Under the pieces are notes generated by a model that made no database searches, was not told the DNA's origin, and saw only the letters and a list, made by a program, of their open reading frames with translations. A DNA stretch of 25,662 nucleotides. Source: a virus. Of this stretch, positions 1 through 25,662 are shown piece by piece. Numbering within the stretch: the stretch's first letter is position 1; each line of letters starts with the position of its first letter. Both the position numbers and the translations under genes were made by a program. Location: positions 1-25,662 of IMG/VR virus record IMGVR_UViG_3300042924_006813. The stretch is one strand, 5' to 3'.

Positions 1-194
1 GGCTTACTGTTATTATCTAGTACATCAACAGCATTTGTCACTGATGCCATCTCGTCTTGCCAGTATTTAACAGAATCTTCTGCATTATGCTGTCGTGCAA
101 CAGCCAATTCTCTTTTGATAAACTCAATTCGATGTGACAAAGCAAAGCGCAAAACAAACTTAGTTTCGCTGTCGAGTTCGATTTTGTATTTCAT
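1..194 (-). CDS. Small hypothetical protein, 3' end outside the window
   Basis: The reading frame opens at an ATG at 194 and runs without a stop to the left edge, giving at least 64 residues beginning MKYKIELDSETKF. The protein is charged and probably helical, with no motif I recognise. It lies 27 bases after the stop of the next small minus-strand gene. The gap holds six AAC triplets and then TAACAAC directly before the ATG, with no Shine-Dalgarno sequence. It uses A/T-ending codons more than its three upstream neighbours do. It is probably one of a set of small early genes, which is an inference from size and clustering only. Confidence 0.6.
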   Translation of the reverse strand, partial: MKYKIELDSETKFVLRFALSHRIEFIKRELAVARQHNAEDSVKYWQDEMASVTNAVDVLDNNSK

Positions 195-205
195 GTTGTT
201 ACTGT

Positions 206-223
206 GTTGTTGTTGTTGTTGTT
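206..223 (-). repeat. (AAC)6 microsatellite in an intergenic leader
   Basis: The plus strand reads GTT six times in a row; on the coding minus strand this is six AAC triplets. The repeat overlaps the TAA stop of the 67-residue gene and fills most of the short leader of the gene starting at 194. It may act as an unstructured, A/C-rich translation leader, or it may simply be slippage-prone sequence. Confidence 0.75.
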
Positions 224-425
224 AGATAGTGCCAACCAATTCCATCATCCAAGAGTCACGGCGTTCGTCAAACCAGATGTTCGCCTCGGCCTTTTCGGCC
301 TCAGTGAGTTCCATCGGCTCGCCGCCCCAAGACTCAGGGATCGGTCCCGTGAAGTCTTCGATGCGGAGCGCGATCATGTCGCTCAGGTTGCTCTCGGCGC
401 TGATGTTGGCGAAGTCGTTCGTCAT
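222..425 (-). CDS. Small acidic hypothetical protein, 67 aa
   Basis: This short protein begins MTNDFANISAESN and is rich in Asp and Glu, with a Trp-containing C-terminal half (WGGEP, WFDERRDSWMMEL). I recognise no family. The start is supported by the conserved leader TAACAAC before the ATG and by an A-tract/GTAGACAGAAAA repeat ending exactly 24 bases upstream, the same distance as for the next gene. G+C and G/C-ending codons are much higher than in the rest of the window, suggesting a different origin or different selection. Small acidic proteins in such clusters of tailed phages are often early host-modifying proteins, but nothing here identifies a target. Confidence 0.65.
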   Translation of the reverse strand: MTNDFANISAESNLSDMIALRIEDFTGPIPESWGGEPMELTEAEKAEANIWFDERRDSWMMELVGTI

Positions 426-449
426 GTTGTTAAGTTAGGGTAGAAACTC

Positions 450-480
450 TTTTCTGTCTACTTTTTTTTTACTTTTTTTA
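450..480 (-). promoter_or_regulatory. Intergenic A-tract repeat, copy 1
   Basis: On the minus strand this reads A7-GT-A9-GTAGACAGAAAA. Twenty bases (450-469) are identical to copy 2 at 646-665. It begins in the TAA stop of the 47-residue gene and ends exactly 24 bases before the next ATG (425). The repeat and its fixed distance suggest a phage promoter, an upstream element or an RNA-processing site; which of these cannot be told from sequence. Confidence 0.55.
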
Positions 481-621
481 CCGGACCTTCAGCCTCTCGA
501 AAACGTCCTTGGTCTCGTTCAGAACCTGAGTCAGAACCTTGTCGCAGAACTCGCGCCACTCGGTCTCGGTAATTTGTCCGGTTTGGAACTTGTCGAACTT
601 GATCGCGTATTCGTTTGTCAT
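478..621 (-). CDS. Very small hypothetical protein, 47 aa
   Basis: The frame runs from ATG at 621 to TAA at 478-480 and encodes 47 residues beginning MTNEYAIKFDKFQTG and ending in a Lys/Arg-containing helix. No family is recognised. I support it as a gene because it is flanked on both sides by the same A-tract repeat as its neighbours, has the shared leader TAACACC immediately before the ATG, shares the MTN start with the next gene, and shows the same G/C-ending codon preference (GAC, AAC, GTC, AAG). It is probably co-transcribed with the other small minus-strand genes. Confidence 0.6.
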   Translation of the reverse strand: MTNEYAIKFDKFQTGQITETEWREFCDKVLTQVLNETKDVFERLKVR

Positions 622-645
622 GGTGTTACCTTAGTGGATGCGGCG

Positions 646-676
646 TTTTCTGTCTACTTTTTTTTCAGACTTTTTT
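646..676 (-). promoter_or_regulatory. Intergenic A-tract repeat, copy 2
   Basis: The minus strand reads GAAAAAAGTCTGAAAAAAAA followed by GTAGACAGAAAA. The last 20 bases are identical to copy 1, and again exactly 24 bases separate the element from the ATG (621). It overlaps the stop region of the 79-residue gene. The CTGAAAAAA unit is itself duplicated. Confidence 0.55.
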
Positions 677-915
677 CAGACCTCAACCATCATCCCGTTG
701 TTGTTGCGGAAGTAACTTCCGCTGGTGCTGCGCTTTGCAAGCGGTGCGAAGTCGTAAGACTTCACCTCAACCACCTTGCCGATGTTCGCCATTGCCTCGG
801 CCTCAGTCTTGCCGCTCGCGAAGTCCACCGTGCCGTCCGCCTTGCGATACTTCACCGTAACGAGGGCCACGCTGCTGAACTTGTTTACCTTGATGATCTC
901 GACGTTGTTTTGCAT
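676..915 (-). CDS. Small hypothetical protein, 79 aa
   Basis: The protein begins MQNNVEIIKVNKFSS and ends near NNNGMMVEV. Alternating hydrophobic stretches (VALVTVKYRK, KVVEVKSYDF) suggest a small beta-rich or alpha/beta fold; no family is recognised. Its composition is G+C-rich like the two following genes and unlike the rest of the window. A sigma70-like promoter candidate lies directly upstream, so this may be the first gene of the left-going small-gene operon. There is no Shine-Dalgarno sequence. Function unknown. Confidence 0.6.
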   Translation of the reverse strand: MQNNVEIIKVNKFSSVALVTVKYRKADGTVDFASGKTEAEAMANIGKVVEVKSYDFAPLAKRSTSGSYFRNNNGMMVEV

Positions 916-921
916 GGACAG

Positions 922-950
922 ACTATGGGGGAAAACTCGGTGAGCGTCAA
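922..950 (-). promoter_or_regulatory. Candidate sigma70-type promoter for the small minus-strand genes
   Basis: The minus strand contains TTGACG, a 17-base spacer and CATAGT. The -10-like box ends only 7 bases before the ATG at 915, so transcription would start about at the ATG and give a leaderless or nearly leaderless message. The -35 box is good and the -10 box is weak. Confidence 0.3.
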
Positions 951-952
951 CA

Positions 953-980
953 CTTTCAGATAACTTTTTTTACTTTTTTT
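953..980 (-). promoter_or_regulatory. Intergenic A-tract repeat, diverged copy 3
   Basis: The minus strand reads A7-GT-A7-GTTATCTGAAAG, matching the architecture of copies 1 and 2 with changes in the inner six bases. It lies just upstream of the TTGACG promoter candidate, 37 bases before the ATG at 915, so its spacing differs from the 24 bases of the other two. Confidence 0.45.
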
Positions 981-1055
981 CGATGGCCTGGACGCATCGA
1001 CTTGGCACACATACTGCTTCCAGCAGATACGATGCCAACCAGCCATGGGGGGGGT

Positions 1056-1086
1056 GGGGGGGGGAGCGCAACCCCCCCATTTTTTT
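1056..1086 (+). terminator. Terminator-like hairpin built of G9 and C7 tracts
   Basis: Nine G residues, a seven-base AGCGCAA loop and seven C residues are followed by A and T7, which has the form of an intrinsic terminator reading rightward. A further G8 tract (1047-1054) precedes it. No plus-strand gene ends here, so its role is unclear; it may insulate the left-going small genes, form a G-quadruplex, or be a homopolymer sequencing artefact. Confidence 0.35.
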
Positions 1087-1227
1087 GAAATTTTTTTGCT
1101 TGACAGAGTGCGCGACGAGGTAGGGGGAGGCTATTCTCAATCTCTCATTCAATTTTATCCTATCTTATATAATGTCTAATATACCTAACTAACATATTAA
1201 ACAATGTTATATATCTACCTATAAATA

Positions 1228-2100: not shown

Positions 2101-2910
2101 ATGCGCGTGTTAGTAACCGGGGGTTCAGGTTTTATCGGTACACATTTAATAAAAAAATTATTATCTGATGGGCATGATGTTTATAATGTAGATAAAATTA
2201 ACAGCCGCGCACTTCCTCCCGATAAACAAAAAACAATAGACATATTAGATATTGATGTTGATGATAGTTTTTTTATTGGTATGGATGCCATTATTCATTT
2301 AGCGGCAATGGTAAGTGTGCCGAAATCATTTGAAGATCCAGTAAATAGCTTTGGTAATAATGCTTTCTTGACTGTAAAGATGTTAAAAATTGCCAAGCAA
2401 CATAATATTAAAAAATTCTTTTTCGCTTCTAGCGCAGCAGTATACGGAGATAAAGAAGGAACAGTTAGTGAAACAGATATTACTGAACCTAATAGTCCAT
2501 ATGGCTTAGATAAATTAGTATCTGAAAAATATATAAGAATGTATACTCAATTATGGAATGTAGATCATATTATTCTTAGATTCTTTAATGTTTTCGGTGA
2601 AGGACAAAATCCTCAATATGCTGGAGTGATAACAGCATTTAATATCGCCGCGCAAAATCAACAACCATTAATTATATATGGAGATGGAGAACAAACTAGG
2701 GATTTTATAAGCGTAAACGATATATGCAATTATATTTCTAAACTGATTTCTATAGATGTTAAAAATGAAACATTCAATATCGGTTCTGGCAAATCTATTT
2801 CTATAAAAACGCTTGCAAAACAATTTGGTAATAATATAATATATAAGGAAGCAAGAAAAGAAGTCCGTCATTCGTGCGCTAATATAGAAAAAATAAAAAA
2901 CTATGAATAA
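2101..2910 (+). CDS. NAD-dependent sugar epimerase/dehydratase, extended SDR, C-terminally short
   Basis: This is a GalE/WbpP-type extended short-chain dehydrogenase acting on a nucleotide sugar in the cytoplasm. The Rossmann motif GGSGFIG is at residues 7-13, the catalytic Ser region FASSAAVYG at 108-116, and Tyr134-x3-Lys138 follows in the correct context. The stretch GDGEQTRDFISVNDI (194-208) is typical of UDP-hexose 4-epimerases and related 4,6-dehydratases. At 269 residues it is shorter than the usual 300-330; it stops right after the conserved VRHSCANIEK segment, so the terminal part of the substrate lobe is missing. Its last 8 bases overlap the next gene. I see no continuation in the other frames, so it is a shortened protein rather than a frameshift. 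It probably supplies the sugar donor for the following glycosyltransferases; the exact substrate cannot be read. Confidence 0.85.
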   Translation: MRVLVTGGSGFIGTHLIKKLLSDGHDVYNVDKINSRALPPDKQKTIDILDIDVDDSFFIGMDAIIHLAAMVSVPKSFEDPVNSFGNNAFLTVKMLKIAKQHNIKKFFFASSAAVYGDKEGTVSETDITEPNSPYGLDKLVSEKYIRMYTQLWNVDHIILRFFNVFGEGQNPQYAGVITAFNIAAQNQQPLIIYGDGEQTRDFISVNDICNYISKLISIDVKNETFNIGSGKSISIKTLAKQFGNNIIYKEARKEVRHSCANIEKIKNYE

Positions 2911-5647
2911 ATACGATTATTTTTCAAAAAACTTAATTGAAATCACTAATTTCGATAAAAATAGAGGAACAGTTTTTTACAAATCGCACAAAAAGATAGA
3001 TTCAAATTTAAAAATAATCATTGCTGACAAACATAATGGTTTTATTATTCATCAAGAATTATTAGGTGTTTTTCCGTCAAATGTAGAGTATTATACTGAT
3101 TTTTCAATTTTTAAAAAATTTATACATCAAGATATTTTAGTTATTTTTAAATCGAATGACGAATTTTTTTTAATAGAAACTCTTAGGCTTTATGACGAGC
3201 CTAATTTCAACCCTTATTCTAATTTTAAATTTAATTTTGATGCAGATTTTTGTAGTTATTATGAAATTTTTGAAAAAGAAATGTATAAGAAGTTTTCAAT
3301 TGATGTGGAAGAAGGTGATGTTGTTGTTGATATAGGTTCTAATGTTGGCGCTTTTATTAAATACGCAAATGATAAAAAAGCTAAAATAATTTATTCATGT
3401 GAACCTAATCCAGCTTGCATAAAAATAATAGAAAAACATTATGCTTTAAATAATGTAATATTAAATAAATACGCAATATCTGATAAAAATGGTATTTCAG
3501 AACTTGAAATACCATTCAATAGTGATACCTCTGGATGTTCAAAAATTACAGAAGCTAATGTAAAAAATACATTTACAGATGTAAAAACAATACAAATTGA
3601 AACAATAACTTTTAAAAATTTTATAGAAAAAAATAATATCTTAAAAATAGATTATTTAAAAGTAGATTGTGAAGGTGGAGAGGCTTTTGTATTTAAAGAT
3701 GAAAACAAAACATTTTTTCAACAAAATGTTAAAAAAATTGTTTTAGAATTTCATAACGAAAGTAAGTTCGATATTATTAAACTTCTTAAATCGATAAATT
3801 ATTCTATTGATATCGTAGATGAAAATCAAAAAACAGGAATGATTTATGCAAAAAATAAAAATTTTTATGATTTAGATATTGTTTTAAGTTTTTTTGTCAG
3901 TAAAAACAGTTTATCAACATTTGATAAAACTATTGAGTCTTTTCACAAGCATTGTAAAAATTTAAGTCTTATAAAAGAATTATTTTTAGTAAATGATAGA
4001 TGTCCAGATATTTATGCTATAAAATGCTTAATAAAAAATTATTTTCCGCAAGTTAAAATCTCTGAGATTAACAAGACAAATGAAGTAAAAAATAATCACG
4101 CTGAAATTTTTGAAACTTTTAGAAAAGAATTGATTACTCGCGATGCAAAATATTGTTTCTTTTTAGAAGATGATTGGCTTTTTATTAAAGATTTTGATCT
4201 ACTTGCTTTGACAAACATTTTAAATAAATCAAATTATTGTCAAATAGTTTTGTCTACGGATTTTAAAAATTTAGATGTAAATAAAAATTTAAATTGGCCT
4301 ACTTCCGAGTTTTTAGGTTTTATTAAAAATGAAAAAAAACCATTTTTTCACATAACTAAAAAGATAGAAGAAGAATTTTTTTGGTCAGAAGTGATTGACT
4401 ATACTTGTTTCTCTTTAAATCCATCGTTAATAAAAATTGATTTTTTTAAAAAAGGTGGATCTATAGAAAACGATCCTGTTTTTGAATTATTATATAATTT
4501 ATCTAACAAAGAACAAACTAATTTATTATCAGAAGAGCATTTTTGCTATCATATTGGTGATTTAAAAAAAATAAAGCTAGAACAACAAAATACTAAATCA
4601 AATTTAAAAATAGGAGTTCTTTTTGCTTCGTATAACTGTGCTGATCATATTGATAGATGTTTTCAACCTTGGTTAAATTTGCGCGAAGAATTGAATTTAG
4701 TTTTAGCTTCTACAAATGGAAGATACGATCTTTCAGATTTAAAATTTGATTATAAAGGTAATGATTCTCTTGTAAAATTATTAGGTAAAAATTTAGATTT
4801 CTTAGTTCATTCAACAAGTGTTAACCATAGATGGAGCGAAGAAGAAAGTAGGACATATATGTTAAATTATATGTTAGATAGAAAAGTTGATTTAATTTTT
4901 GTAGTTGATGCTGATGAATTTTATACAGAAGAACAAATAAAAAATATTTTAAAATACGTTCAAGAAAATTCTAATTACGATGCTTATAACGTGCAGTTTA
5001 AAAATTATGTGATAAAATTACCTTATTGGATTGAAGGTTTTAATAAAAGCGTAGTCTATTGGTGCAATAGGCATGGAGGAATAAAATGCTTTAATTTTGA
5101 TTGTGAAATAGCTTATAATGATGGAACAATAATTCAAAAAAACACTAATGTAAATATTATACCTAAAAATATAGCTTTCGTAGACCATTATTCTTGGTTA
5201 GAGAATGATCCAAGAACTAAAGAAAAGACTGTATTGCAAAATGTTAAATATTTTGGTGAAGAAAATTTAAAATGTTCTTTTTGTTACGATGAAAATGACA
5301 ATTTAATAGTAAATGAAAATTTTTATAAAAAAAGAGTTGGCCTCTTGCCAACTTTCCACAAAACTATAACCAAACATTGTTGCGATTTTGATATATATAT
5401 AAATGAAAATGATAACAGCTTTCACATAAAAAATGTGTTAGTAAATAAAAATTTTATTTTTAGTATTTATAATGGAGAAACTAACGATTTGATTTACGCG
5501 CCATTAATGAATTTAACAGCTAATTTAAATTATTATATAAATTGTGGCATAAATCTGAAAAGCTATAAAAGTTTTAAAATTATTGTTATAGATGTAGAAA
5601 CAAATAAAGAAATTCATGATGAGTTGTTATTTTTAAAATTTAAATAA
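2903..5647 (+). CDS. FkbM methyltransferase fused to two glycosyltransferase-like domains
   Basis: The protein has 914 residues and at least four parts. Residues 1-130 are unrecognised. Residues about 135-290 are an FkbM-type SAM-dependent O-methyltransferase, with VVDIGSNVGA (141-150), CEPNP (166-170) and KVDCEGGE (253-260). Residues about 325-560 look like a GT-A fold, with LVNDR (362-366) and the acidic LEDDW (421-425). Residues about 568-790 are a second GT2-like domain, with ASYNCADHIDRC (575-586), VVDADEF (667-673) and HYSW (762-765). The tail (825-914) is beta-rich and may bind glycan. It would build and O-methylate a glycan. It overlaps the epimerase by 8 bases, so the two are probably translated together. 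There is no signal peptide or membrane segment. Composition is extremely AT-rich, with Asn, Lys and Ile codons dominant. The order of reactions and the acceptor are unknown. Confidence 0.85.
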   Translation: MNKYDYFSKNLIEITNFDKNRGTVFYKSHKKIDSNLKIIIADKHNGFIIHQELLGVFPSNVEYYTDFSIFKKFIHQDILVIFKSNDEFFLIETLRLYDEPNFNPYSNFKFNFDADFCSYYEIFEKEMYKKFSIDVEEGDVVVDIGSNVGAFIKYANDKKAKIIYSCEPNPACIKIIEKHYALNNVILNKYAISDKNGISELEIPFNSDTSGCSKITEANVKNTFTDVKTIQIETITFKNFIEKNNILKIDYLKVDCEGGEAFVFKDENKTFFQQNVKKIVLEFHNESKFDIIKLLKSINYSIDIVDENQKTGMIYAKNKNFYDLDIVLSFFVSKNSLSTFDKTIESFHKHCKNLSLIKELFLVNDRCPDIYAIKCLIKNYFPQVKISEINKTNEVKNNHAEIFETFRKELITRDAKYCFFLEDDWLFIKDFDLLALTNILNKSNYCQIVLSTDFKNLDVNKNLNWPTSEFLGFIKNEKKPFFHITKKIEEEFFWSEVIDYTCFSLNPSLIKIDFFKKGGSIENDPVFELLYNLSNKEQTNLLSEEHFCYHIGDLKKIKLEQQNTKSNLKIGVLFASYNCADHIDRCFQPWLNLREELNLVLASTNGRYDLSDLKFDYKGNDSLVKLLGKNLDFLVHSTSVNHRWSEEESRTYMLNYMLDRKVDLIFVVDADEFYTEEQIKNILKYVQENSNYDAYNVQFKNYVIKLPYWIEGFNKSVVYWCNRHGGIKCFNFDCEIAYNDGTIIQKNTNVNIIPKNIAFVDHYSWLENDPRTKEKTVLQNVKYFGEENLKCSFCYDENDNLIVNENFYKKRVGLLPTFHKTITKHCCDFDIYINENDNSFHIKNVLVNKNFIFSIYNGETNDLIYAPLMNLTANLNYYINCGINLKSYKSFKIIVIDVETNKEIHDELLFLKFK

Positions 5648-5652
5648 ATTTA

Positions 5653-5682
5653 AAGCCTTGGGCTTGAAATTGGGTTTTTTTT
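5653..5682 (+). terminator. Weak hairpin plus T8, possible attenuator or processing site
   Basis: AAGCC-TTG-GGCTT forms a short five-pair stem, followed after nine bases by T8. The stem is short and the T tract is not adjacent, so complete termination is unlikely. It lies in the only sizeable gap (63 bases) inside the first part of the cassette, and could reduce or re-set transcription before the next gene. Confidence 0.3.
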
Positions 5683-5710: not shown

Positions 5711-8700
5711 ATGAAAAAAAAAGAATTGTATCACAAAATCAATCCAAATTCTTTAGGTGATGCTTTAGCAGCCACACCAACTTTAAGAAAAATTTCTAAG
5801 TCTTACGATCAAAAAATAAATGTTGTAACTCATGTTCCTGAATTATTTAAAAATAATCCATATGTTAAAAATATTTATTCTTTTGAACAATTTAATAAAT
5901 TAAAATTATCTGCCGAAACTGAAGTTTTTGAAACTTTTTGTGGTTGTGGAGTAAAAAATAATAATGGTGTTGAAAAAAAACATAACCTTTTTGACATCAG
6001 AAGATTTCATTCTGTTGATTTAGGATTTGATCTATTAGATACAGAAATGCATTATGATTTTGTTCCTGATTTAAATAATAATTATCACATTTCTCAAAAA
6101 TACATTTGCTTGCATGCCGCCACTTCTTGGGAGTCTAGAACATACTCTAAAGAAAATTGGCAAAATCTGATAAATGAACTAGAAAAATTAAATTATTTTA
6201 TAGTTATAGTAGGAAAAAACGCTACAGAACACGGCTTTTGGAATATTGATAAAAAAATTCACTCTTTATCTTTTAAAAATGGATTAGATTTGAGTAATAA
6301 ATTAAACCTATCTGAATTATGGCATGTTTTAAATAATTCTGAATATGTAATAACTATGGATTCAGGTATATTGCATTTTGCTGGTACGACTGATACATTC
6401 ATTATACAGCTAGGATCATCTATAAATAATAAATTACGCGCACCATATAGAAATAATTCTCAAGACTATAAATATAAATATATTTCTGGTCCTTGTGATA
6501 TTTTTTGCGGCTCCGATATGAAATACGGTATAAAAGAATGGGGAACAATAAATAGTGTGCCTCCATTGGTAAAATGTTTAGAAAATAAATCAACTTTCGA
6601 ATGCCATTCTAAAGTAAGCGATGTCGTAGATTTTATCAAAACAAGAAACGTGTTAGTTGAAATAAATAATACTTCCAAAAAATATTTATTTATTGCTGGA
6701 CATTTATCTACTGGTGGAGGTCCAAAATATTTAGAATGGTTAATAAAGAAAATTAAAAATGAAGGAAATACAATTAAAGTTGTTGAATGGAATCTTTATA
6801 GTCCAAATTTTATTGTTCAAAGGAATGAAATAATAGACACAATTGGAAAAGATAATTTTATAAGTGTCGGATCTTATTATGAAGATGATTCTACATTTTA
6901 CGATAAGGAAAAAAATATAAAAAATTATATTAATGATTTTGCGCCTGATTATATTCATTTAAATGATTTACCAGAGGAGTTTGCTATAAAGCCTATGTCT
7001 AAAGATTTTCTTGAGTTTTTATATAAAAAAGATAGATCTTATAAAATATTAGAGACATGCCATACTTCACAATTTGATTTTAATAAAAAAATTTATATAC
7101 CTGATGCTTTTTGGTTTTGTTCTGACTATCATTTAAAATTATCTAAAAATATAAATGTGCCAAAGAAAATTGTCGAAATGGATTTGCCTTTGAATATTCG
7201 TCCAAATAGAGATGATACCTTGAAAGAATTAGGTTTAGACCCTAGTTATTATCATGTTTTACAGGTTGGATTATTTCATAAAAATAAAAATCAAAAATTT
7301 ACATTCGACGTTGCTAAAAATTTCTTGGATGACAAGATTCTTTTTCATTTTGTAGGAAACATGTGTTATATTGATGAATGTGATATAGATAGAAATCAAA
7401 AAAATTGCATGATTTGGGGAGAGCGCGATGATGTGCAAAAATTTATGTCTTGTATGGATTTATTTGTTATGCCATCACTACAAGAATTAAATCCAATTTC
7501 TATAAAAGAGGCACTTTCTTGGAATATGAAGTGCTTCATAAGTGATTTAGATGTATATAGAGATAAGTATAAAGATAATAATAATATTTCTTTTATAAAA
7601 GAACATAATCTTTTACAATATATTGTTAATTTACCTTTATCTAATATTAGTGAATCATATGTAGAAAATTTCTTTTTTGCAGATTTTCGCAAACCAGTAA
7701 GAATAGAAATATCTGGAAATAATTCTTACAAATACGATGTTAAATTTATTAATAAATTAAATAATAAGATTTTTTATGAATCTTTGTTAACTAATAATAT
7801 GTGGGCGGCTTCGGAACAAGAGTCTGCTGAAAATGTTAAAATAATTATGCAAAATCTAACTACAAAACAAATTTTTAATTTTGAAAAATCTAATGATCGA
7901 AAAGTTTGTGTAGCAAATGAATCTGGAAGTCTAGGGGATACATTAGCTTGGACTCCAGTTGTAAATCGTTTTGCTGTAGAAAATAATATTACAATTGATT
8001 ATTTTACGCCTTATAAAAATTTATTTGAAGCTAAATATCCAAATATAAATTTTTATGATTATAGTTATAAAAACAATATTTCTGCTGACAGTCAAATTTA
8101 TGAATTAAAATTTGATTGCGGTAAATTAGATAATACAAAAAATCTACAAGAAATAGCGTCTGATATTTTGAATATTTATCATAAAGAAGAAAGACCACAA
8201 ATAAATATTGCAAAGCCTTTTAAGAAAAACTTTAATAAAAAATATGTTTGTATAGCAACACATTCCACTTCACAATTTAAATATTGGAACAATCCTATTG
8301 GATGGCAACAAACGGTTGATTATTTAAAATCTATTGGTTATGATGTTATCTGTATAGATAAACAAGAATATTTTGGAACTGATAAAAAAATGAATTGCAT
8401 ACCTAAAGGATGTATTAATAAAACTGGTGATATTTCTTTACAAGAAAGAATGAATGATTTACATTTTTGTGATTTCTTCATTGGCTTGACTTCTGGCTTA
8501 TCCTGGTTAGCTTGGTCTTTGGAAAAACCAGTTGTTTTAATTTCAGGAATTTCAAAAGAAAATACAGAATTTTTTACTCCTTATAGAGTTACAAATACTA
8601 ACGTATGTCATGGATGTGCAACTGAAAAAGGTTATGAATTTGATAGAGACGATTGGATGTTTTGTCCTAAAAATAAAAATTTTGAATGCACTTCATCGAT

Positions 8701-8761
8701 AACATTTGAAATGGTAAAAGAACAAATAGATAAATTAATAAAAGATCATAATTTAAAATAA
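5711..8761 (+). CDS. Giant GT9-GT4-BAHT (autotransporter heptosyltransferase-like) fusion
   Basis: I chose the ATG at 5711 (MKKKELYHKI); an in-frame ATG ten codons earlier is less likely. The 1016-residue protein has three glycosyltransferase units. Residues 1-310 are GT9/heptosyltransferase-like: NSLGDALAATP near 13-23, HAATSWESRTY at 135-145, TMDSGILHFAG at 215-225. Residues about 323-640 are a GT4 GT-B domain: STGGGPKY, GLFHKNKNQKF at 520-530 and an E-x7-E motif (E592-E600). Residues about 660-1016 resemble BAHT/TibC protein O-heptosyltransferases: a small beta domain, then GSLGDTLAW (739-747), HSTSQFKYWN (851-860), GLTSGLSWLAW (925-935) and Cys at 966, 969, 985 and 993, placed like the metal-binding Cys of that family. 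BAHT enzymes add heptose from ADP-heptose to Ser in repetitive adhesins. The nearby HldE-like kinase supports a heptose-related donor. Substrate and acceptor are inferred. Confidence 0.85.
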   Translation: MKKKELYHKINPNSLGDALAATPTLRKISKSYDQKINVVTHVPELFKNNPYVKNIYSFEQFNKLKLSAETEVFETFCGCGVKNNNGVEKKHNLFDIRRFHSVDLGFDLLDTEMHYDFVPDLNNNYHISQKYICLHAATSWESRTYSKENWQNLINELEKLNYFIVIVGKNATEHGFWNIDKKIHSLSFKNGLDLSNKLNLSELWHVLNNSEYVITMDSGILHFAGTTDTFIIQLGSSINNKLRAPYRNNSQDYKYKYISGPCDIFCGSDMKYGIKEWGTINSVPPLVKCLENKSTFECHSKVSDVVDFIKTRNVLVEINNTSKKYLFIAGHLSTGGGPKYLEWLIKKIKNEGNTIKVVEWNLYSPNFIVQRNEIIDTIGKDNFISVGSYYEDDSTFYDKEKNIKNYINDFAPDYIHLNDLPEEFAIKPMSKDFLEFLYKKDRSYKILETCHTSQFDFNKKIYIPDAFWFCSDYHLKLSKNINVPKKIVEMDLPLNIRPNRDDTLKELGLDPSYYHVLQVGLFHKNKNQKFTFDVAKNFLDDKILFHFVGNMCYIDECDIDRNQKNCMIWGERDDVQKFMSCMDLFVMPSLQELNPISIKEALSWNMKCFISDLDVYRDKYKDNNNISFIKEHNLLQYIVNLPLSNISESYVENFFFADFRKPVRIEISGNNSYKYDVKFINKLNNKIFYESLLTNNMWAASEQESAENVKIIMQNLTTKQIFNFEKSNDRKVCVANESGSLGDTLAWTPVVNRFAVENNITIDYFTPYKNLFEAKYPNINFYDYSYKNNISADSQIYELKFDCGKLDNTKNLQEIASDILNIYHKEERPQINIAKPFKKNFNKKYVCIATHSTSQFKYWNNPIGWQQTVDYLKSIGYDVICIDKQEYFGTDKKMNCIPKGCINKTGDISLQERMNDLHFCDFFIGLTSGLSWLAWSLEKPVVLISGISKENTEFFTPYRVTNTNVCHGCATEKGYEFDRDDWMFCPKNKNFECTSSITFEMVKEQIDKLIKDHNLK

Positions 8762-8762
8762 G

Positions 8763-9404
8763 ATGAATATTTTATTAACCGGAGCTTCTGGATCTTTAGG
8801 CAAAGAGTTTGTAAAAGAGTTTCAAAAAAGAAATTTTAATTATTACACCCAAACAAATTCTATCGATTTAGGTGAAAAAAATATTTTATGTAATTTTAAT
8901 GATCCTAAAAATTTACTATCAATAAAAGATTATATTAAAAAAAATAATATAACTCATTTAATAAATAATGCAGGTATTTATATTAATGGAGAATTAAACG
9001 ATTTAACTGATCAAAGCGTTGTCGATTTGATAAATATTAATTTACTAAGTCCAATTTTGTTGTCTAAATATTTATACGAACACCTTGCAGAAACCAATCA
9101 ATCAGGAAAAATAATAAACATAAATTCAATAGCTGGAAAACAGCCAAACTATTTAGAATCAGTTTATTCTGCCTCTAAGCATGGTCTTGCCGGTTTTGGG
9201 GCATCGTTATCAATTAATCAAAAAAAATCAAGAATTCAAATTATAGATTGTTTTGTTGGCGGAATAAAAAGTAATATAACTAAAAACAGATCGAATTATG
9301 ATTCTTTAATGCAGCCATCAACCATTTCAAAATTTATTGTTGACTTGTTGCAGTCTAAAGAGGACTATACAGTGTCTTCTATAGATTTAAGAAATAATGT
9401 ATGA
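8763..9404 (+). CDS. Short-chain dehydrogenase/reductase (classical SDR)
   Basis: A compact 213-residue NAD(P)-dependent oxidoreductase. The cofactor motif TGASGSLG is at residues 6-13, NNAG at 68-71, the catalytic Ser at about 122 (ININSIAG) and YSASK at 135-139, so all catalytic residues are present. It is a little shorter than the usual 240-260 residues, the missing part being at the C-terminal substrate lobe. The ATG follows the previous stop by one base, and its own stop overlaps the next start as ATGA, which points to translational coupling with the MDR dehydrogenase. In this context it probably reduces or oxidises a sugar or sugar-derived carbonyl; the substrate is not readable. A small-molecule reductase unrelated to sugars is possible but less consistent with the neighbours. 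Confidence 0.85.
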   Translation: MNILLTGASGSLGKEFVKEFQKRNFNYYTQTNSIDLGEKNILCNFNDPKNLLSIKDYIKKNNITHLINNAGIYINGELNDLTDQSVVDLININLLSPILLSKYLYEHLAETNQSGKIININSIAGKQPNYLESVYSASKHGLAGFGASLSINQKKSRIQIIDCFVGGIKSNITKNRSNYDSLMQPSTISKFIVDLLQSKEDYTVSSIDLRNNV

Positions 9405-10420
9405 AAGCTGTTATTTTAGTTAAAAAAAATGAACCACTGATAGTAGATGATATAAGTTTACCGGAACAACTTTTTTTTGGTCAAGTTAAAGTAAAAAATA
9501 TTATAAGCGGTTTGTGCGGCGCTCAATTGCAAGAAATAGCTGGATTAAAAAATAATGAAAAATTCATGCCTCATTTGTTAGGTCATGAAGGTTGTGGTAT
9601 TGTTGAAGAGATAGGTCAAGGAGTGAACAAAGTTAAAGTCGGAGACAAGGTTATTTTACATTGGCGAAAAAGCTCAGGAATAGAATCTGAATTTCCAATA
9701 TATACTTGGAATGATAAAAAAATATCTGGAGCAAAGTTAACTACGCTTTCAGAATATTCTATTGTTTCAGAAAATAGAATTACAAAAGTAAATAATGATA
9801 TATGTAATAATTTTTGTGCTTTATTGGGATGTGGACTTTCTACGGGACTAAGCGTAGTAAATAATGAGGCTAATATTAAGTTTGGTGAAAGCGTATTAGT
9901 TCTTGGATGTGGTGGAGTTGGTCTTAATTGTATTTTCGCTTCTAAATTATCACATGCTAGTCCAGTTGTTGGGGTAGATATTAGTATTTATAAACAAGCG
10001 CTTACAATAAAAAATGGTGGTGAATTTTATCATATTGATTCTTTAAATCAGTTGTTTGATAAGTATAAAAAATTTGATTGTATCATAGATACGACAGGAA
10101 ATTTAGACTTAGTTTCAAAATGTATTCCTTATTTATCTGAACAAGGAAGATGTATATTTATTTCTCAACCAAAACAAAATTCTTCGTTAATTATAACTAA
10201 TCCAATAAATTTCTTTTCAAGTAAAGGATTATCTTTTAAGACAACTCAAGCTGGGGGTTTTGATCCAGACGTAGATATTCCAAAGTACATAAAATTATAC
10301 TTGAACAAAGTTATAAACATAGATAATATAATCACAGATTTTTACGATTTAGATAGCATAAATGAAGCTGTAGCTAAATTAATGACTGGCACTTCTGGCA
10401 GAATTTTAATAAAAATATGA
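9401..10420 (+). CDS. Zinc-dependent medium-chain dehydrogenase (MDR, Tdh/AdhP-like) lacking the structural-zinc lobe
   Basis: The 339-residue protein belongs to the medium-chain alcohol/polyol dehydrogenases. Catalytic zinc ligands can be assigned: Cys39 (GLCGAQ), His62-Glu63 (LLGHEGCG) and Cys144 (GCGLSTG). The Rossmann motif VLGCGGVG lies at 167-174, followed by GVDIS. The loop after GDKVILHW (about residues 88-105), where relatives usually carry four Cys binding a structural zinc, has none, so that lobe is reduced. Start and stop overlap both neighbours by four bases (ATGA), placing it firmly in an operon with the SDR and the TPP enzyme. It likely oxidises or reduces a sugar or polyol hydroxyl, or a product of the TPP enzyme. 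The relationship to a threonine or sorbitol dehydrogenase is only at family level. Confidence 0.85.
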   Translation: MKAVILVKKNEPLIVDDISLPEQLFFGQVKVKNIISGLCGAQLQEIAGLKNNEKFMPHLLGHEGCGIVEEIGQGVNKVKVGDKVILHWRKSSGIESEFPIYTWNDKKISGAKLTTLSEYSIVSENRITKVNNDICNNFCALLGCGLSTGLSVVNNEANIKFGESVLVLGCGGVGLNCIFASKLSHASPVVGVDISIYKQALTIKNGGEFYHIDSLNQLFDKYKKFDCIIDTTGNLDLVSKCIPYLSEQGRCIFISQPKQNSSLIITNPINFFSSKGLSFKTTQAGGFDPDVDIPKYIKLYLNKVINIDNIITDFYDLDSINEAVAKLMTGTSGRILIKI

Positions 10421-11607
10421 ACTATATCTCTAAACAAGGGTTGATTGATTTTGAAAACGAAATAATTAAACTGTATAAAGATTGCAAGCTTCCGTTCCTT
10501 TTCCATTTATCAGGTGGAAATGAAGATCAGTTAATTGAAATTTTCAAAGAAATTAAAGATGGTGACTATGTAATCTCTAATCACAGAAACCATTATCACG
10601 CTCTTCTCGCTGGAATCCCGGCGGATGAGTTGCGCCAAAGAATCGTGGATGGCAGAAGTATGTTTATTTATGACAGGAAGCGCAATTTCTTTACGTCAGC
10701 GATCATTGGCGGTACTCCAGCTATTGCGGCGGGAATCGCTCTTGCTCTTAAGCGCAAGGGGTCTTCTCAAAAGGTGTGGTGCTTCGTTGGTGACGGCACA
10801 GAAGATTCTGGGCATCTTTTTGAGGCAGCAAGATATGTTTCTGGTTTTGATTTGCCATGCAAATTCATCGTAGAAGATAATAATAGATCTGTTTGTACTC
10901 CAAAGAGCGAAAGATGGGGTCAATCTGTATCACCTCCGATGCCTCCTTGCGTAGAAAGATATCGATACGACATCACTTATCCTCACGCAAGAATTGACGA
11001 GAATATTGATCTAAAGAAAACAAAGCAAAAAACTGATGCTGAATATTTTCCATATTTGCTTCCAGAAAAGATGCCGTCTTTTGATATTGATCCAAATATT
11101 TCATTTAAGAACGCTGTTACTGAAGCTATGACAGAGATTGGTAAAGCAAATTCTGTATTTATTGGATACAATGTTAAGTATGGAAACGCAATGGGTAATC
11201 TTATAAATGTAGAAGATAGCAAAAAAATTGAAACGCCTGTTGCTGAAAATCTTATGGCTGGACTTGCAATCGGAATGTCTTTTGAAGGATTCAAGCCTGT
11301 TGTTTATTATGAACGTCACGATTTCATGTTGGTAGCGGCAGATGCTATCGTTAATCATGCTAATCATATCGAAAGAATTTCTCATGGAGAATATGAGTGT
11401 CCAGTAATATTTAGAACAGTGGTTGCTGATAGCGGTCCTTTCTATTCTGGACCAACTCATTCTCAAAATTTTACAGCAGGATTTAGAAATATGATTTCTT
11501 TTCCAATTTATGTTCCAGATACTGGTGCAGAAGTATTAGATGCTTATAAAAAAGCATTACATTCTAGGAGACCATCTATGGTTGTCGAAAGAAAAAGCAA
11601 ATTCTAA
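10417..11607 (+). CDS. Compact single-chain TPP enzyme (E1 alpha plus E1 beta/transketolase-like)
   Basis: The 396 residues combine two modules normally found on separate E1 subunits. Residues 1-200 resemble the E1-alpha PP domain: SNHRNHYHALLAG (54-66), GGTPAIAAGIALA (98-110) and the TPP motif GDG (125-127) to EDNN (153-156). Residues about 225-396 resemble the E1-beta/transketolase Pyr domain: PVAEN with the cofactor-activating Glu276, and GPTHSQNF with a catalytic-type His348. The C-terminal E1-beta domain and lipoyl-domain partners are absent, so it is unlikely to be part of a dehydrogenase complex. Ketol or acyl transfer is more likely, as in transketolase or the AviB1/AviB2-type enzymes that add two-carbon branches to sugars. 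Part of the gene (about 10570-10960) is visibly more G+C-rich than its neighbours, suggesting separate acquisition. The ATG overlaps the MDR stop. Catalytic residues look intact. Confidence 0.8.
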   Translation: MNYISKQGLIDFENEIIKLYKDCKLPFLFHLSGGNEDQLIEIFKEIKDGDYVISNHRNHYHALLAGIPADELRQRIVDGRSMFIYDRKRNFFTSAIIGGTPAIAAGIALALKRKGSSQKVWCFVGDGTEDSGHLFEAARYVSGFDLPCKFIVEDNNRSVCTPKSERWGQSVSPPMPPCVERYRYDITYPHARIDENIDLKKTKQKTDAEYFPYLLPEKMPSFDIDPNISFKNAVTEAMTEIGKANSVFIGYNVKYGNAMGNLINVEDSKKIETPVAENLMAGLAIGMSFEGFKPVVYYERHDFMLVAADAIVNHANHIERISHGEYECPVIFRTVVADSGPFYSGPTHSQNFTAGFRNMISFPIYVPDTGAEVLDAYKKALHSRRPSMVVERKSKF

Positions 11608-12338
11608 TGAAAAAGAAAATTTTAGTAATAGGTGATAGTTGTAGAGATGTTCATATTTATTGTTCATCTAGCAGAATGTGTCCAGACAAGCCAGTGCCAA
11701 TTTTAAAAATTATTGATCAAAATGATAATCCTGGTATGGCGAAAAATGTTTATAGAAATATAAAATCTATTGTAGAATCTTGTGATTTACTAACGAATAC
11801 AAACTGGCACAACATTACTAAAACTAGATATGTACATAAAACTACAAATCATATGTTTTTTAGAGTAGATTCTGCCGAAGAAATAAAAAGGATAAATATT
11901 GATTCAATAAATTATAATTATGATCATATAGTTATTTCAGATTATGATAAAGGATATTTAACTGAAGAAGATATCATAACAATATCTTCAAATCATAATT
12001 CTGTATTTTTAGACACAAAAAAAATATTAGGTTCGTGGGCTAATAAAGTAAAATTTATAAAAATTAATAATCATGAATATGAAAGATCTAAAAATTTTAT
12101 AACAGAAGAGCTTAACAATAAAATAATAAAAACCTGTGGTGAATATGGATGCTATTATTTAAATGAAAGATTTCCTGTTGAACAGCAAGAAGTTATTGAT
12201 GTGTCTGGTGCTGGAGATTCTTTCTTAGCTGGTTTAATTATTGAATATTCTAAAAATAAGGATATTAGAGCGTCTATAGAATTTGCAAATAAATGTGCTA
12301 GTAAAGTTGTTAGTCAAAAAGGTGTTAGTGTGATATGA
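11607..12338 (+). CDS. PfkB-family sugar kinase, HldE/RfaE kinase-domain-like
   Basis: The 243-residue protein matches the kinase half of HldE (D-glycero-beta-D-manno-heptose-7-phosphate kinase). The start ILVIGDSCRDVHIYCSSSR (5-23) mirrors the HldE entry VVGDxMLDRYxxGxxxR, followed by PDKPVPILKI and NPGMAKNV (41-48) at the sugar-binding loop. Then come ISDYDKGYL (110-118), FLDTKK (134-139) and the PfkB signature DVSGAGDSF (198-206) with the catalytic Asp204. It is about 70 residues shorter than the usual kinase domain and has no nucleotidyltransferase half. The ATG overlaps the previous stop (TAATG). Substrate is probably a heptose phosphate or related sugar; GmhA-, GmhB-, adenylyltransferase- and HldD-like partners are not in this window and might come from the host or elsewhere in the phage. 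Confidence 0.8.
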   Translation: MKKKILVIGDSCRDVHIYCSSSRMCPDKPVPILKIIDQNDNPGMAKNVYRNIKSIVESCDLLTNTNWHNITKTRYVHKTTNHMFFRVDSAEEIKRINIDSINYNYDHIVISDYDKGYLTEEDIITISSNHNSVFLDTKKILGSWANKVKFIKINNHEYERSKNFITEELNNKIIKTCGEYGCYYLNERFPVEQQEVIDVSGAGDSFLAGLIIEYSKNKDIRASIEFANKCASKVVSQKGVSVI

Positions 12339-12359: not shown

Positions 12360-13067
12360 ATGAATAATTTTTTAACAGTAGGTGTGGAAAAAAATACTAT
12401 TAATAAAAACTACCGTCAATTAATGAAAAAATTTATTGAAGAGACTGCGGTTGAAATTTTTGATTTTAATCAATATGAATTAAATGTAAAAGTAGAGCCT
12501 AATGATTTAGTCTTAGATTTAGGATGTTCTTTTGGTTATTTTTATTTTAAAAATTTGCGTAAAAATATAACTTATATTGGTGTTGATGGTAGTATTGATT
12601 GTTTAAAAGATTTTTATGAAAACTTAAATAAAGATAACAGACCTATTCTTATAAATAGTTTTATAACAGATGATAAAAAAATTTATGATTGTAAACCGTT
12701 TTTTCATGACGCGCCTTCTAAAGAAGTAGTTAGTATTTCTTTTGCAGATTTAATTAAATTATTAAATAAAAAAATTGATTTTTTAAAATTTGATATTGAA
12801 GGTGCAGAAATGGATTTCTTCGATAATGAATCAAATTATAAATTGTTAAAACAAAATGTTAAAAAATTCTCTGGCGAATTTCATTTATTAAATAGATCTC
12901 ATTCCCGAGAAAAAATAAATGAAGTGTTAAGAAAGCTTTCTGTAGATCCTGAATTAGATTTGAAAATTTATAGTATTAACGCTGTAGATATTACAAATTC
13001 TTATTTTAATAGTGGAGATTATTATTCAGAAATAATTATATCTAGCAAAGTCAACAATAATATATAA
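12360..13067 (+). CDS. FkbM-family methyltransferase
   Basis: A free-standing 235-residue SAM-dependent methyltransferase. Motif I is VLDLGCSFGY (51-60), the second acidic region YIGVDGS (72-78), and KFDIEGAE (143-150) is the FkbM hallmark, followed by GEFHLL (172-177). FkbM enzymes O-methylate hydroxyls of sugars or polyketides. It is clearly different from the FkbM domain of the 914-residue fusion, so the phage carries two. It starts 21 bases after the kinase stop, behind TAATATAAATCTATTT, without a Shine-Dalgarno sequence, and closes the glycan cassette. Expected role: terminal methylation of the phage-made glycan. The stop codon is embedded in a perfect 20-base AT palindrome. Confidence 0.8.
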   Translation: MNNFLTVGVEKNTINKNYRQLMKKFIEETAVEIFDFNQYELNVKVEPNDLVLDLGCSFGYFYFKNLRKNITYIGVDGSIDCLKDFYENLNKDNRPILINSFITDDKKIYDCKPFFHDAPSKEVVSISFADLIKLLNKKIDFLKFDIEGAEMDFFDNESNYKLLKQNVKKFSGEFHLLNRSHSREKINEVLRKLSVDPELDLKIYSINAVDITNSYFNSGDYYSEIIISSKVNNNI

Positions 13068-23225: not shown

Positions 23226-24404
23226 ATGAAAATCGTTTTAAAGAGAACAGATGAACAAGTTGAGCTAATCAAAGCTCTAGCCTCCAAAAACCGTGAAGTA
23301 GCCTTCGATGCTCAAGTAGCTTTGGCTGAATTCATTGGACCAGTTTTGGCTGAAGTTATTAATAACGCTCCAACTATTTCAAATTTGTTCACTAGTCTTC
23401 AATTCAATGCTGAAGATAATCCCTCAATTCCTCTAGATCTCTATTATGATATCTTCGATGAGGACTATATCAAGGTTTATAGCCAAAGTGTAGCTGGTGG
23501 TCTTCCTCAGAACGTAGTACAACCTTTAGCTTCTGAGCTAAAGATCGCTACTTATCGTCTAGATAGCGCTATCGCTTTCGATAAGAAGTACGCTGCTAAG
23601 AGCCGCTTGGACGTAGTTAGCAAGTCTTTCACTCGTATTGCTCAAGAAGTCATGCTCAAGCAAGAAAGAACTTCTGCTAATCTCGTAATGACTGCTCTAG
23701 CTCAAGCTTCTACAGGTAATGATAGTACTGCTGCTAATAACTATCATACTTTCCGTTCTGCTGCTGCTGGACGTTTCGTTCTTAACGACTTGAACAAGTT
23801 GTTCACAAAGATTAAGCGTATTAACGCTTCGTTCGTTGGTGGAACTCCTTCTGGCGCTCGTAGAGGTCTAACTGATCTTATCGTTTCTCCAGAAATCGTT
23901 GAAGAAATTCGTGGTATGGCTTACAACCCCATTAACACTAAAATCGCTCCAGTAGTTGCTGCAAGCACAAGTAATACTGCTGGTAACGCTCCTGTTGTAG
24001 CTACAGATGCAATTCGTGATCAAATCTTTAATCAAGCTGGTCTACCTGAATTCTATGGTGTTAGTATCATGGAAATTCTAGAGCTAGGAATTGGCAAGAA
24101 GTTTAACACTATCTTCGATACTGTAGCTGGTGCTACAGCTTATGCTGATCACTATAGCATTACTTCTTACGGTGGTACTGCTACAGCTTTCGATGGTGCT
24201 AATGAAGAAATCATTGTTGGTCTCGATAGAAGTCGCGATTCTCTAGTTCGCGCCGTTGCTGTCGATGCTGACAGCGGTTCTGAATTCAACCTCGTCGCTG
24301 ATGATCAATATACACTTCGTCAGGGTAAGATCGGTTATTATGGTGCTTTGGAAGAGGGCCGTATGGTTCTCGACAATCGCGCTCTAGTTGGATTGATTGT
24401 CTAA
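23226..24404 (+). CDS. Major capsid protein
   Basis: The 392-residue protein lies after protease/scaffold and decoration genes and before a strong terminator, as expected for the most abundant virion protein. It begins with a helical N-arm (MKIVLKRTDEQVELIKALASKN), followed by an Ala/Leu-rich core, a candidate E-loop/P-domain region (YRLDSAIAFDKKYAAKSRLD; FTRIAQEVMLKQERTSANLV) and a beta-rich C-terminal half including DNVIVGLDRSRDSLV-like and DQYTLRQGKIGYYGALEEGRM elements seen in many HK97-fold capsid proteins. Codon use is the most G+C-rich and GCT/CTC-biased of the plus-strand genes, which fits very high expression. I assign it by context and overall character rather than a diagnostic motif. 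Whether the N-terminus is cleaved by the protease cannot be seen. Confidence 0.85.
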   Translation: MKIVLKRTDEQVELIKALASKNREVAFDAQVALAEFIGPVLAEVINNAPTISNLFTSLQFNAEDNPSIPLDLYYDIFDEDYIKVYSQSVAGGLPQNVVQPLASELKIATYRLDSAIAFDKKYAAKSRLDVVSKSFTRIAQEVMLKQERTSANLVMTALAQASTGNDSTAANNYHTFRSAAAGRFVLNDLNKLFTKIKRINASFVGGTPSGARRGLTDLIVSPEIVEEIRGMAYNPINTKIAPVVAASTSNTAGNAPVVATDAIRDQIFNQAGLPEFYGVSIMEILELGIGKKFNTIFDTVAGATAYADHYSITSYGGTATAFDGANEEIIVGLDRSRDSLVRAVAVDADSGSEFNLVADDQYTLRQGKIGYYGALEEGRMVLDNRALVGLIV

Positions 24405-24978: not shown

Positions 24979-25308
24979 ATGGCAACGCAGTTATCAGTTA
25001 TAAGAGGAGATGATCTTGGAACTCAGACGTTAAATTTAACTTCTTCTACTTTAGATTTTTCTAATATAACTTGTACTGGAGAAATCAGACCTCATCCAGA
25101 TGGTAACTTAATATATCGATTTTTACCAGTGGTAGCTACTGCAACTGTTGGAACAGGTATAGTTTATTTTGATATTCCTGGTTCAGTTACAAAAGGTTTT
25201 CCTCCTATTAATTTATATGGAGATATACATTTTTATTCTACAGGTATATCAGATAGAACATTTTTTGAATTTAGATTAGACGTATTGCCAGATGTAACCC
25301 ATTTATAA
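24979..25308 (+). CDS. Small beta-rich protein, probable tail/baseplate or fibre component
   Basis: The 109 residues are dominated by Thr/Ser/Ile/Val beta strands (MATQLSVIRGDDLGTQTLNL; FFEFRLDVLPDVTHL) without catalytic motifs, resembling the compact beta-sandwich N-terminal modules of phage baseplate (BppU-like) and fibre proteins. It lies fourteen bases upstream of the collagen-like fibre gene, which supports a tail attachment or fibre role. No family is certain. The leader is AT-rich with TAATATACTAACAA before the ATG. Confidence 0.6.
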   Translation: MATQLSVIRGDDLGTQTLNLTSSTLDFSNITCTGEIRPHPDGNLIYRFLPVVATATVGTGIVYFDIPGSVTKGFPPINLYGDIHFYSTGISDRTFFEFRLDVLPDVTHL

Positions 25309-25322
25309 TAAAAAAATTATAT

Positions 25323-25662
25323 ATGCCATCTAATGATTTTTCAATAACAATAAGTTCTAATGCAAATAATATAGCTTTATCCACTCAAACTCTAGGTCCA
25401 GTAGGTCCATCTGGAACTTCTGGAACTAGTGGTATAGGTATTCCAGTTGGTGGTACAGTTAATCAAGTTCTTGCCAAAGCGAGTTCAACTAACTATGATG
25501 TGGTTTGGGTGGATCAAACTGGTGGTGGAGGCAGTGGAGGTAGTGCGGGAACTTCAGGTAGCTCAGGTTCATCTGGTACTTCTGGCAGCAGTGGTTCGTC
25601 TGGAACTTCTGGTGGTACAGGTTCATCTGGCACTTCTGGTAGCAGTGGTTCGTCTGGAACTT
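25323..25662 (+). CDS. Collagen-like Gly-Ser/Thr repeat tail fibre, 3' end outside the window
   Basis: The frame starts MPSNDFSITISSNANN and stays open for 113 codons to the right edge. After GPVGPSGTSGTSG comes PVGGTVNQVLAKASSTNYDVVWVDQ-type sequence (about residues 41-64), a module common in phage tail fibres. From residue 65 onward it is a Gly-x-Ser/Thr array (GSGGSAGTSGSSGSSGTSG) with no Pro-Pro. It probably forms an extended fibre or adhesin shaft. Dense Ser/Thr makes it a strong candidate for O-glycosylation by the phage-encoded glycosyltransferases (inference). It follows the small beta-rich protein after fourteen bases. Length and receptor-binding end are unknown because the gene runs out of the window. 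Confidence 0.8.
   Translation, partial: MPSNDFSITISSNANNIALSTQTLGPVGPSGTSGTSGIGIPVGGTVNQVLAKASSTNYDVVWVDQTGGGGSGGSAGTSGSSGSSGTSGSSGSSGTSGGTGSSGTSGSSGSSGT
25566..25662 (+). repeat. 54-base tandem repeat in the fibre gene
   Basis: The stretch from 25566 (GGTTCATCTGGTACTTCTGG) recurs with third-position changes at 25620, a period of 54 bases or 18 residues. Within it are shorter nine-base units encoding Gly-Thr/Ser-Ser. Such arrays expand and contract by recombination or slippage, altering fibre length. The array continues beyond the window. Confidence 0.8.

Follow-up and report, generated by a model that had tools for sequence, protein, structure and literature searches.

A BAHT-family glycosyltransferase and a proline-free collagen-like fibre in aquatic phages: a candidate system for O-glycosylation of the phage's own tail fibre

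Introduction

Known glycosyltransferases of the BAHT family modify Ser residues in the strand-loop-strand repeats (TIGR04415) of bacterial autotransporters, which are beta-helical and not collagen-like. The best described pairs, TibC-TibA and AAH-AIDA-I, resemble the phage locus analyzed here in that the enzyme, a member of the same family, has a catalytic Asp, sugar-binding residues and a four-Cys iron finger, and in that its partner is a repetitive, Ser-rich, surface-exposed protein whose gene can adjoin that of the enzyme. The partner, however, is a beta-helical autotransporter with TIGR04415 in those pairs and a collagen-like Gly-Ser/Thr fibre in the phage; moreover, both pairs are bacterial, whereas the viral enzyme carries fused GT9 and GT4 domains.

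Related processes have been described in viruses and on other collagen-like proteins. Virion proteins of mycobacteriophages are glycosylated and phage-encoded glycosyltransferases have been implicated (Freeman et al. 2023); the acceptors there are the C-termini of capsid and tail tube proteins, and the passage of PMC12619734 that reports them mentions neither a BAHT nor a collagen-like array. Mimivirus L230 offers a parallel to our proposal, being an enzyme by which a virus modifies its own collagen-like protein (PMC9614988), although it hydroxylates Lys and adds glucose, is unrelated to BAHT and belongs to a eukaryotic virus. BclA of Bacillus anthracis has a glycosylated collagen-like stalk, a modification thought to aid stability and hydration (PMC8968730), but it is a spore protein and its sugars and enzymes differ from those of the phage system.

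A sequence-only reading of this DNA had suggested that a Ser/Thr repeat fibre may be the acceptor of the phage's own glycosyltransferase, and that such a self-contained system would be new. Since phage virion glycosylation and virus-modified collagen are already known, what is new is narrower, namely that a BAHT is paired with a fibre of collagen-like type; a partial search of the open literature returned no description of BAHT in phages.

Results

The fibre gene at the right end of the window

The window, i.e. the whole 25,662-base stretch analyzed (record G000), is a virus fragment from an aquatic phage. Its right end contains the following features:

23226..24404, plus strand: lineage-marker gene, read as the major capsid protein gene from gene order
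24979..25308, plus strand: p109, conserved partner directly 5' of the fibre gene (phrog_1084; AF2 pLDDT 90.6)
25323..>25661, plus strand: 5' portion of the gene for the collagen-like fibre, 113 aa up to the record end, where the frame is still open
25548..25662, plus strand: tandem array of Gly-(Ser/Thr)-Ser triplets with a 54-nt (18-aa) unit, the proposed acceptor stalk (TRF; codon and position statistics)

The fibre ORF starts with MPSNDFSITIS and continues as a Gly-Thr-Ser/Gly-Ser-Ser array up to the record end. TRF resolved 2.1 copies of the 54-nt unit (90% matches, score 188), and from residue 67 onwards the fragment is composed of 43% Gly, 43% Ser, 13% Thr and 0% Pro; the DNA pattern for six G-[ST]-[ST] triplets has two matches in the window and the reversed pattern none. 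Complete versions were found in two near-identical records that extend past the window end, L002 (434 aa) and L003 (530 aa), where the preceding gene is identical to that of the window. The array ORF, of which only the first 113 residues had been visible to the sequence-only reading, is thus borne out by TRF, by composition and by complete relatives. The full fibre begins as in the window, continues with 18-aa repeats that vary in number and ends in a C-terminal domain of 116 residues common to L002 and L003 only. The array differs in length between these near-identical phages (L002:9382-10686 and L003:8403-9995, the latter with an internal duplication), reflecting either real copy-number variation or a repeat assembly error.

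The full-length L002 fibre matches PF01391 with 65.1 bits, above the gathering cut-off of 27.2, while the window fragment alone scores 17.8 bits, under the same cut-off; the full-length protein also matches tail-fibre PHROGs. We call the fibre "collagen-like" by its Pro-free Gly-X-Y sequence, and a triple helix is not assumed. The AF2 model of p109 has its best PDB matches mostly among T5 tail tip and NF5/DT57C tail-tip or baseplate proteins. The product of the capsid-type gene has 243 related viral stretches and had no match in the PHROG search; in most of the 73 closer relatives that reach that far a Gly-Ser/Thr ORF lies 3' of this gene, one exception being G028, whose array is located elsewhere in the record. 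The complete ORF in L002 and L003, together with the conserved place after the major capsid gene, indicates that the fibre ORF is a gene and not junk. Its conserved position, the PF01391 and PHROG matches and the fold of p109 mark it as a virion fibre that is conserved and probably belongs to the tail.

The 1016-residue enzyme carries a BAHT domain

The enzyme proposed to act on the fibre is encoded about 17 kb from the array gene:

5711..8761, plus strand: 1016-aa glycosyltransferase in three parts, GT9 - GT4 - BAHT (domain profile matches); a TTG at 5681 could serve as an earlier start, giving 1026 aa
7646..8758, plus strand: predicted BAHT (TibC/AAH-type) O-heptosyltransferase domain with iron finger (TIGR04414, 4RAP, key residues)

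That a BAHT shares the record with the array, as had been noted from the sequence, was confirmed by a match of residues 658-1008 to TIGR04414 (E 1.1e-86; 291 bits, curated cut-off 200). The sole solved relatives by sequence are TibC structures (4RAP, E 1.5e-57), and an AF2 model of the domain (24 sequences, pLDDT 86.9) superimposes on 4rap with Z 34.9 and rmsd 7.2 over 353 aligned residues (34% identity), reproducing the TibC fold including its N-terminal beta-barrel; matches to WaaC/WaaF are far lower (Z ~20). In TibC, Asp-110 is catalytic and Thr-226, Lys-230, Arg-286 and Trp-305 bind the sugar (PMC4358343). The window domain keeps all five (D110, T226, K230, R286, W305), as well as the four iron-finger Cys residues (TibC 339, 342, 358 and 370), and these Cys residues, Asp-110 and Trp-305 are each present in 20/20 diverse phage domains. 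The C-terminal domain of the 1016-aa ORF is therefore a genuine member of the BAHT (TibC/AAH) family. Arg-286, which contacts the adenine, is kept in only 10 of these 20 domains, so that the donor may vary among phage BAHTs; at the stereoselectivity position, Pro-300 of TibC, the window enzyme has Thr.

BAHT is encoded in most relatives sharing TerL and MCP that extend more than ~12 kb upstream of the capsid gene, frequently with a second free-standing copy. This ~280-aa copy adjoins the first in many clade members (G005, G019, G023, G028, G032 and others); as it matches the model only from about position 70, it seems to be devoid of the N-terminal beta-barrel. An apparent rarity of BAHT in phages (five viral contigs only, with the whole 1016-aa protein as query) was discarded as a sensitivity artefact after profile search.

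Sugar genes and the donor pathway

The enzyme gene is part of a sugar cluster with these additional members:

2101..2910, plus strand: NAD-dependent sugar epimerase/dehydratase (best HMMs GalE, then HldD, all under cut-off)
2903..5647, plus strand: 914-aa FkbM methyltransferase with a weak GT2-like match (profile matches)
8763..9404, plus strand: SDR oxidoreductase, variable sugar module (profile matches)
9401..10420, plus strand: zinc-type alcohol dehydrogenase, variable sugar module (profile matches)
10417..11607, plus strand: TPP-dependent E1-like enzyme with alpha and beta parts fused (profile matches)
11607..12338, plus strand: PfkB kinase, short (243 aa), nearest to HldE domain I, heptose-7-P kinase (TIGR02198)
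12360..13067, plus strand: second FkbM-like methyltransferase (profile match)

The donor pathway proposed for a self-contained system is not supported. Candidate ADP-heptose genes in the window amount to the short HldE-I-like kinase (TIGR02198 111 bits, far below the cut-off of 345) and the ambiguous epimerase, both under cut-off; GmhA, GmhB and the HldE adenylyltransferase were not recognised by family profiles in this partial record, and ADP-heptose could come from the host. The tailoring genes also vary among relatives: in the close relative L103 (L103:937-4100) a hexapeptide acetyltransferase, a Gfo/Idh-type dehydrogenase and a PseC-like aminotransferase, which point to an amino sugar, replace the SDR, ADH, E1 and PfkB genes of the window. 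A constant transferase core with exchangeable tailoring genes would fit a glycan whose root is conserved and whose outer part varies.

The fused E1-like gene has a homologue in only 1/32 other BAHT regions, and its higher GC content (43% at 10501-11000, ~27% around) suggests a recent acquisition. The left end of the window (1-1140) also departs in composition, with 45-50% GC, poly-G/poly-T runs and short minus-strand frames against 25-30% GC in the body; this part may hold early genes, have been acquired recently or result from an assembly join.

The array and BAHT occur together in many phage lineages

We sampled viral contigs with six Gly-(Ser/Thr)-(Ser/Thr) triplets (DNA pattern), keeping the 50 largest, and a comparison set of 50 contigs obtained likewise with a pattern for Gly-Pro collagen. 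BAHT was detected in 25/50 Gly-Ser/Thr-array contigs and in 0/50 Gly-Pro-array contigs (Fisher p 1e-9), the records being fragments and the controls differing in ecology from the array set, unmatched for habitat. Generic GT2 showed a far weaker contrast (16/50 and 8/50, p 0.10), thus the association goes beyond one with phages rich in sugar genes. Sampling in the reverse direction gave arrays in 19 of 50 BAHT-bearing phage records, mostly fragments, and in one of 50 controls (p 6e-6); these controls include eight of the longer contigs from a random 16-mer sample of 23 mostly short ones.

The sampled BAHT domains are diverse (18 clusters at 50% identity among 35 domains), and the 25 records with both features fall into ~14 lineages by shared neighbouring genes, with a group-collapsed p of 2e-6. 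Among array-bearing records longer than 100 kb, 7 of 9 have a BAHT, compared with 0 of 6 in the control. Each feature also occurs alone in long records: arrays without BAHT in G085 (210 kb) and G069 (148 kb), and BAHT without a strict array in LR756504 (636 kb) and G180 (238 kb). A possible natural contrast, the array-less records L075-L081 plus two long BAHT-less ones, was not counted, as these are fragments of one clade.

In the isolated Microcystis phage Mel-JY01 (PP395634) the strict array pattern had no match, but a lenient scan revealed a 1016-residue collagen-like open frame with 40% Ser/Thr (L087:2-3050, plus strand) that lies 1.7 kb upstream of the BAHT gene. Strict array counts are consequently lower bounds. 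The deposited annotation of Mel-JY01 does not contain this frame, giving instead two opposite-strand and one short same-strand hypothetical genes. TerL relatives of this phage were considered as a neutral control and rejected, as BAHT and array records are among them.

The array gene can lie next to the BAHT gene

In L544 the array and BAHT genes overlap; same-strand gaps are as short as 4 bp in L565, 20 bp in L449 and 28 bp in L442, and in L547 the two genes are 25 bp apart on opposite strands. For the 23 records fetched whole or nearly so, the array nearest to the BAHT gene is at a median of 4.6 kb, compared with 17.5 kb for other genes (Wilcoxon p 0.015; combined p 0.001); an initial test, for which array positions came from the pattern scan only and were incomplete, was not significant (p 0.12). 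An array lies within 10 kb of the BAHT in 13/78 viral loci and in 1/80 bacterial loci. This single bacterial case, L565 (CAJQGZ010000080.1), is a 4.4-kb contig deposited under an uncultured bacterial MAG, with a tail-fibre-like array ORF and a GT4-BAHT ORF; it probably represents phage DNA that was placed in a bacterial bin. The array ORF adjoining the BAHT gene of G058 (L544:10199-19900 and beyond) has more than 800 Gly-Ser/Thr triplets and would be an extraordinarily long fibre.

The acceptor repeat and the constraint on Ser

The canonical acceptor repeat was searched for in both groups of BAHT-bearing genomes. TIGR04415 is above cut-off in 23/40 bacterial ones, which served as a positive control, and at E<=1 it was found in 0/34 BAHT-bearing phage records, among them those of three phages with 190-735 kb, and in 0/19 records comprising the window and its relatives.

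Ser occupies position Y in ~82% of the array triplets and Thr in 1-3%, X being a mix of Ser and Thr; bacterial collagens, by comparison, often have Thr at Y and Pro at X (PMC8968730). TCN and AGY codons for Ser are both used at the same repeat position, which implies that the constraint acts on the protein. TibC modifies Ser and not Thr, and acts on free peptides too (PMC4358343), a specificity that fits the near absence of Thr at Y. The Ser/Thr target named in the sequence-only reading would thus be mainly Ser, if the phage enzyme behaves like TibC. The Ser enrichment expected for arrays in BAHT-bearing records was not seen, as their composition did not differ from that of arrays in BAHT-less records.

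Discussion

The fibre is probably the target of the phage's own BAHT, given that array and BAHT co-occur, sometimes as neighbours, in many unrelated phages; the absence of TIGR04415 from the phage records searched and the Ser-only Y position also favour the acceptor proposed for this locus, which we regard as likely though well short of certain. With the same degree of confidence we propose from these sequences a phage-encoded fibre-glycosylation module, by which the phage would O-glycosylate its own fibre stalk. The BAHT domain of the 1016-aa enzyme would transfer a sugar to Ser, mainly at position Y, in the tail-fibre stalk with its Pro-less Gly-(Ser/Thr)-Ser triplets. This sugar would most likely be D/L-glycero-D-manno-heptose, with host-supplied ADP-heptose as the donor; the GT9 and GT4 domains of the same protein, together with the FkbM methyltransferases, may then extend and cap the glycan, and the exchangeable sugar genes may vary its outer part. 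Such a glycan would make the stalk stiffer or more soluble, or would shield it.

The BAHT-fused enzyme might instead act on another phage protein (the capsid, the tail tube or some other adhesin), the array being a common stalk of large aquatic phages that merely travels along. Arrays and BAHTs are each also found alone, LR756504 having a BAHT without a strict array; arrays do not differ in composition between records with and without BAHT, and in mycobacteriophages the capsid and the tail tube carry glycans (Freeman 2023, as cited in PMC12619734). Yet such co-travelling accords poorly with a two-way association over ~14 lineages that is stronger than that of generic GT2, and with the adjacency of array and BAHT within genomes, and we consider it unlikely. 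More doubtful still is that the cluster alters the host surface (LPS/O-antigen or a glycoprotein) against superinfection while the fibre binds the host unmodified. This is the usual reading of phage sugar genes, e.g. in pelagimyophages (PMC7029224), and the GT9, GT4, FkbM and sugar-nucleotide genes do resemble LPS genes; but the BAHT family modifies Ser of proteins, the iron finger is kept and the enzyme tracks the array, whose adjacency to the BAHT gene would be left unexplained.

Many phage glycosyltransferases act on DNA (Pyle 2024, as cited in PMC12619734), and the cluster could make a glycan for hypermodified phage DNA with no relation to the fibre. We find this very improbable, as fold and residues of the BAHT are those of a protein O-heptosyltransferase; in addition, no base-modification gene was recognised among that part of the window's proteins that was searched.

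Beyond this locus, we lean slightly towards a wider reading of the fibre-glycosylation proposal, according to which many unrelated aquatic phages would have recruited the heptosyltransferase family of bacterial autotransporters and turned it to collagen-like tail fibres with Pro-less Gly-(Ser/Thr)-Ser repeats, yielding a dense brush of Y-Ser glycans extended by the fused GT domains, i.e. a dedicated phage protein O-glycosylation system. If true, it would assign a concrete role to some of the many sugar genes that aquatic phages carry and that are usually ascribed to modification of host LPS or DNA, would provide the BAHT family with a second class of acceptors, and would hint at how a Pro-free collagen-like stalk becomes stable or shielded.
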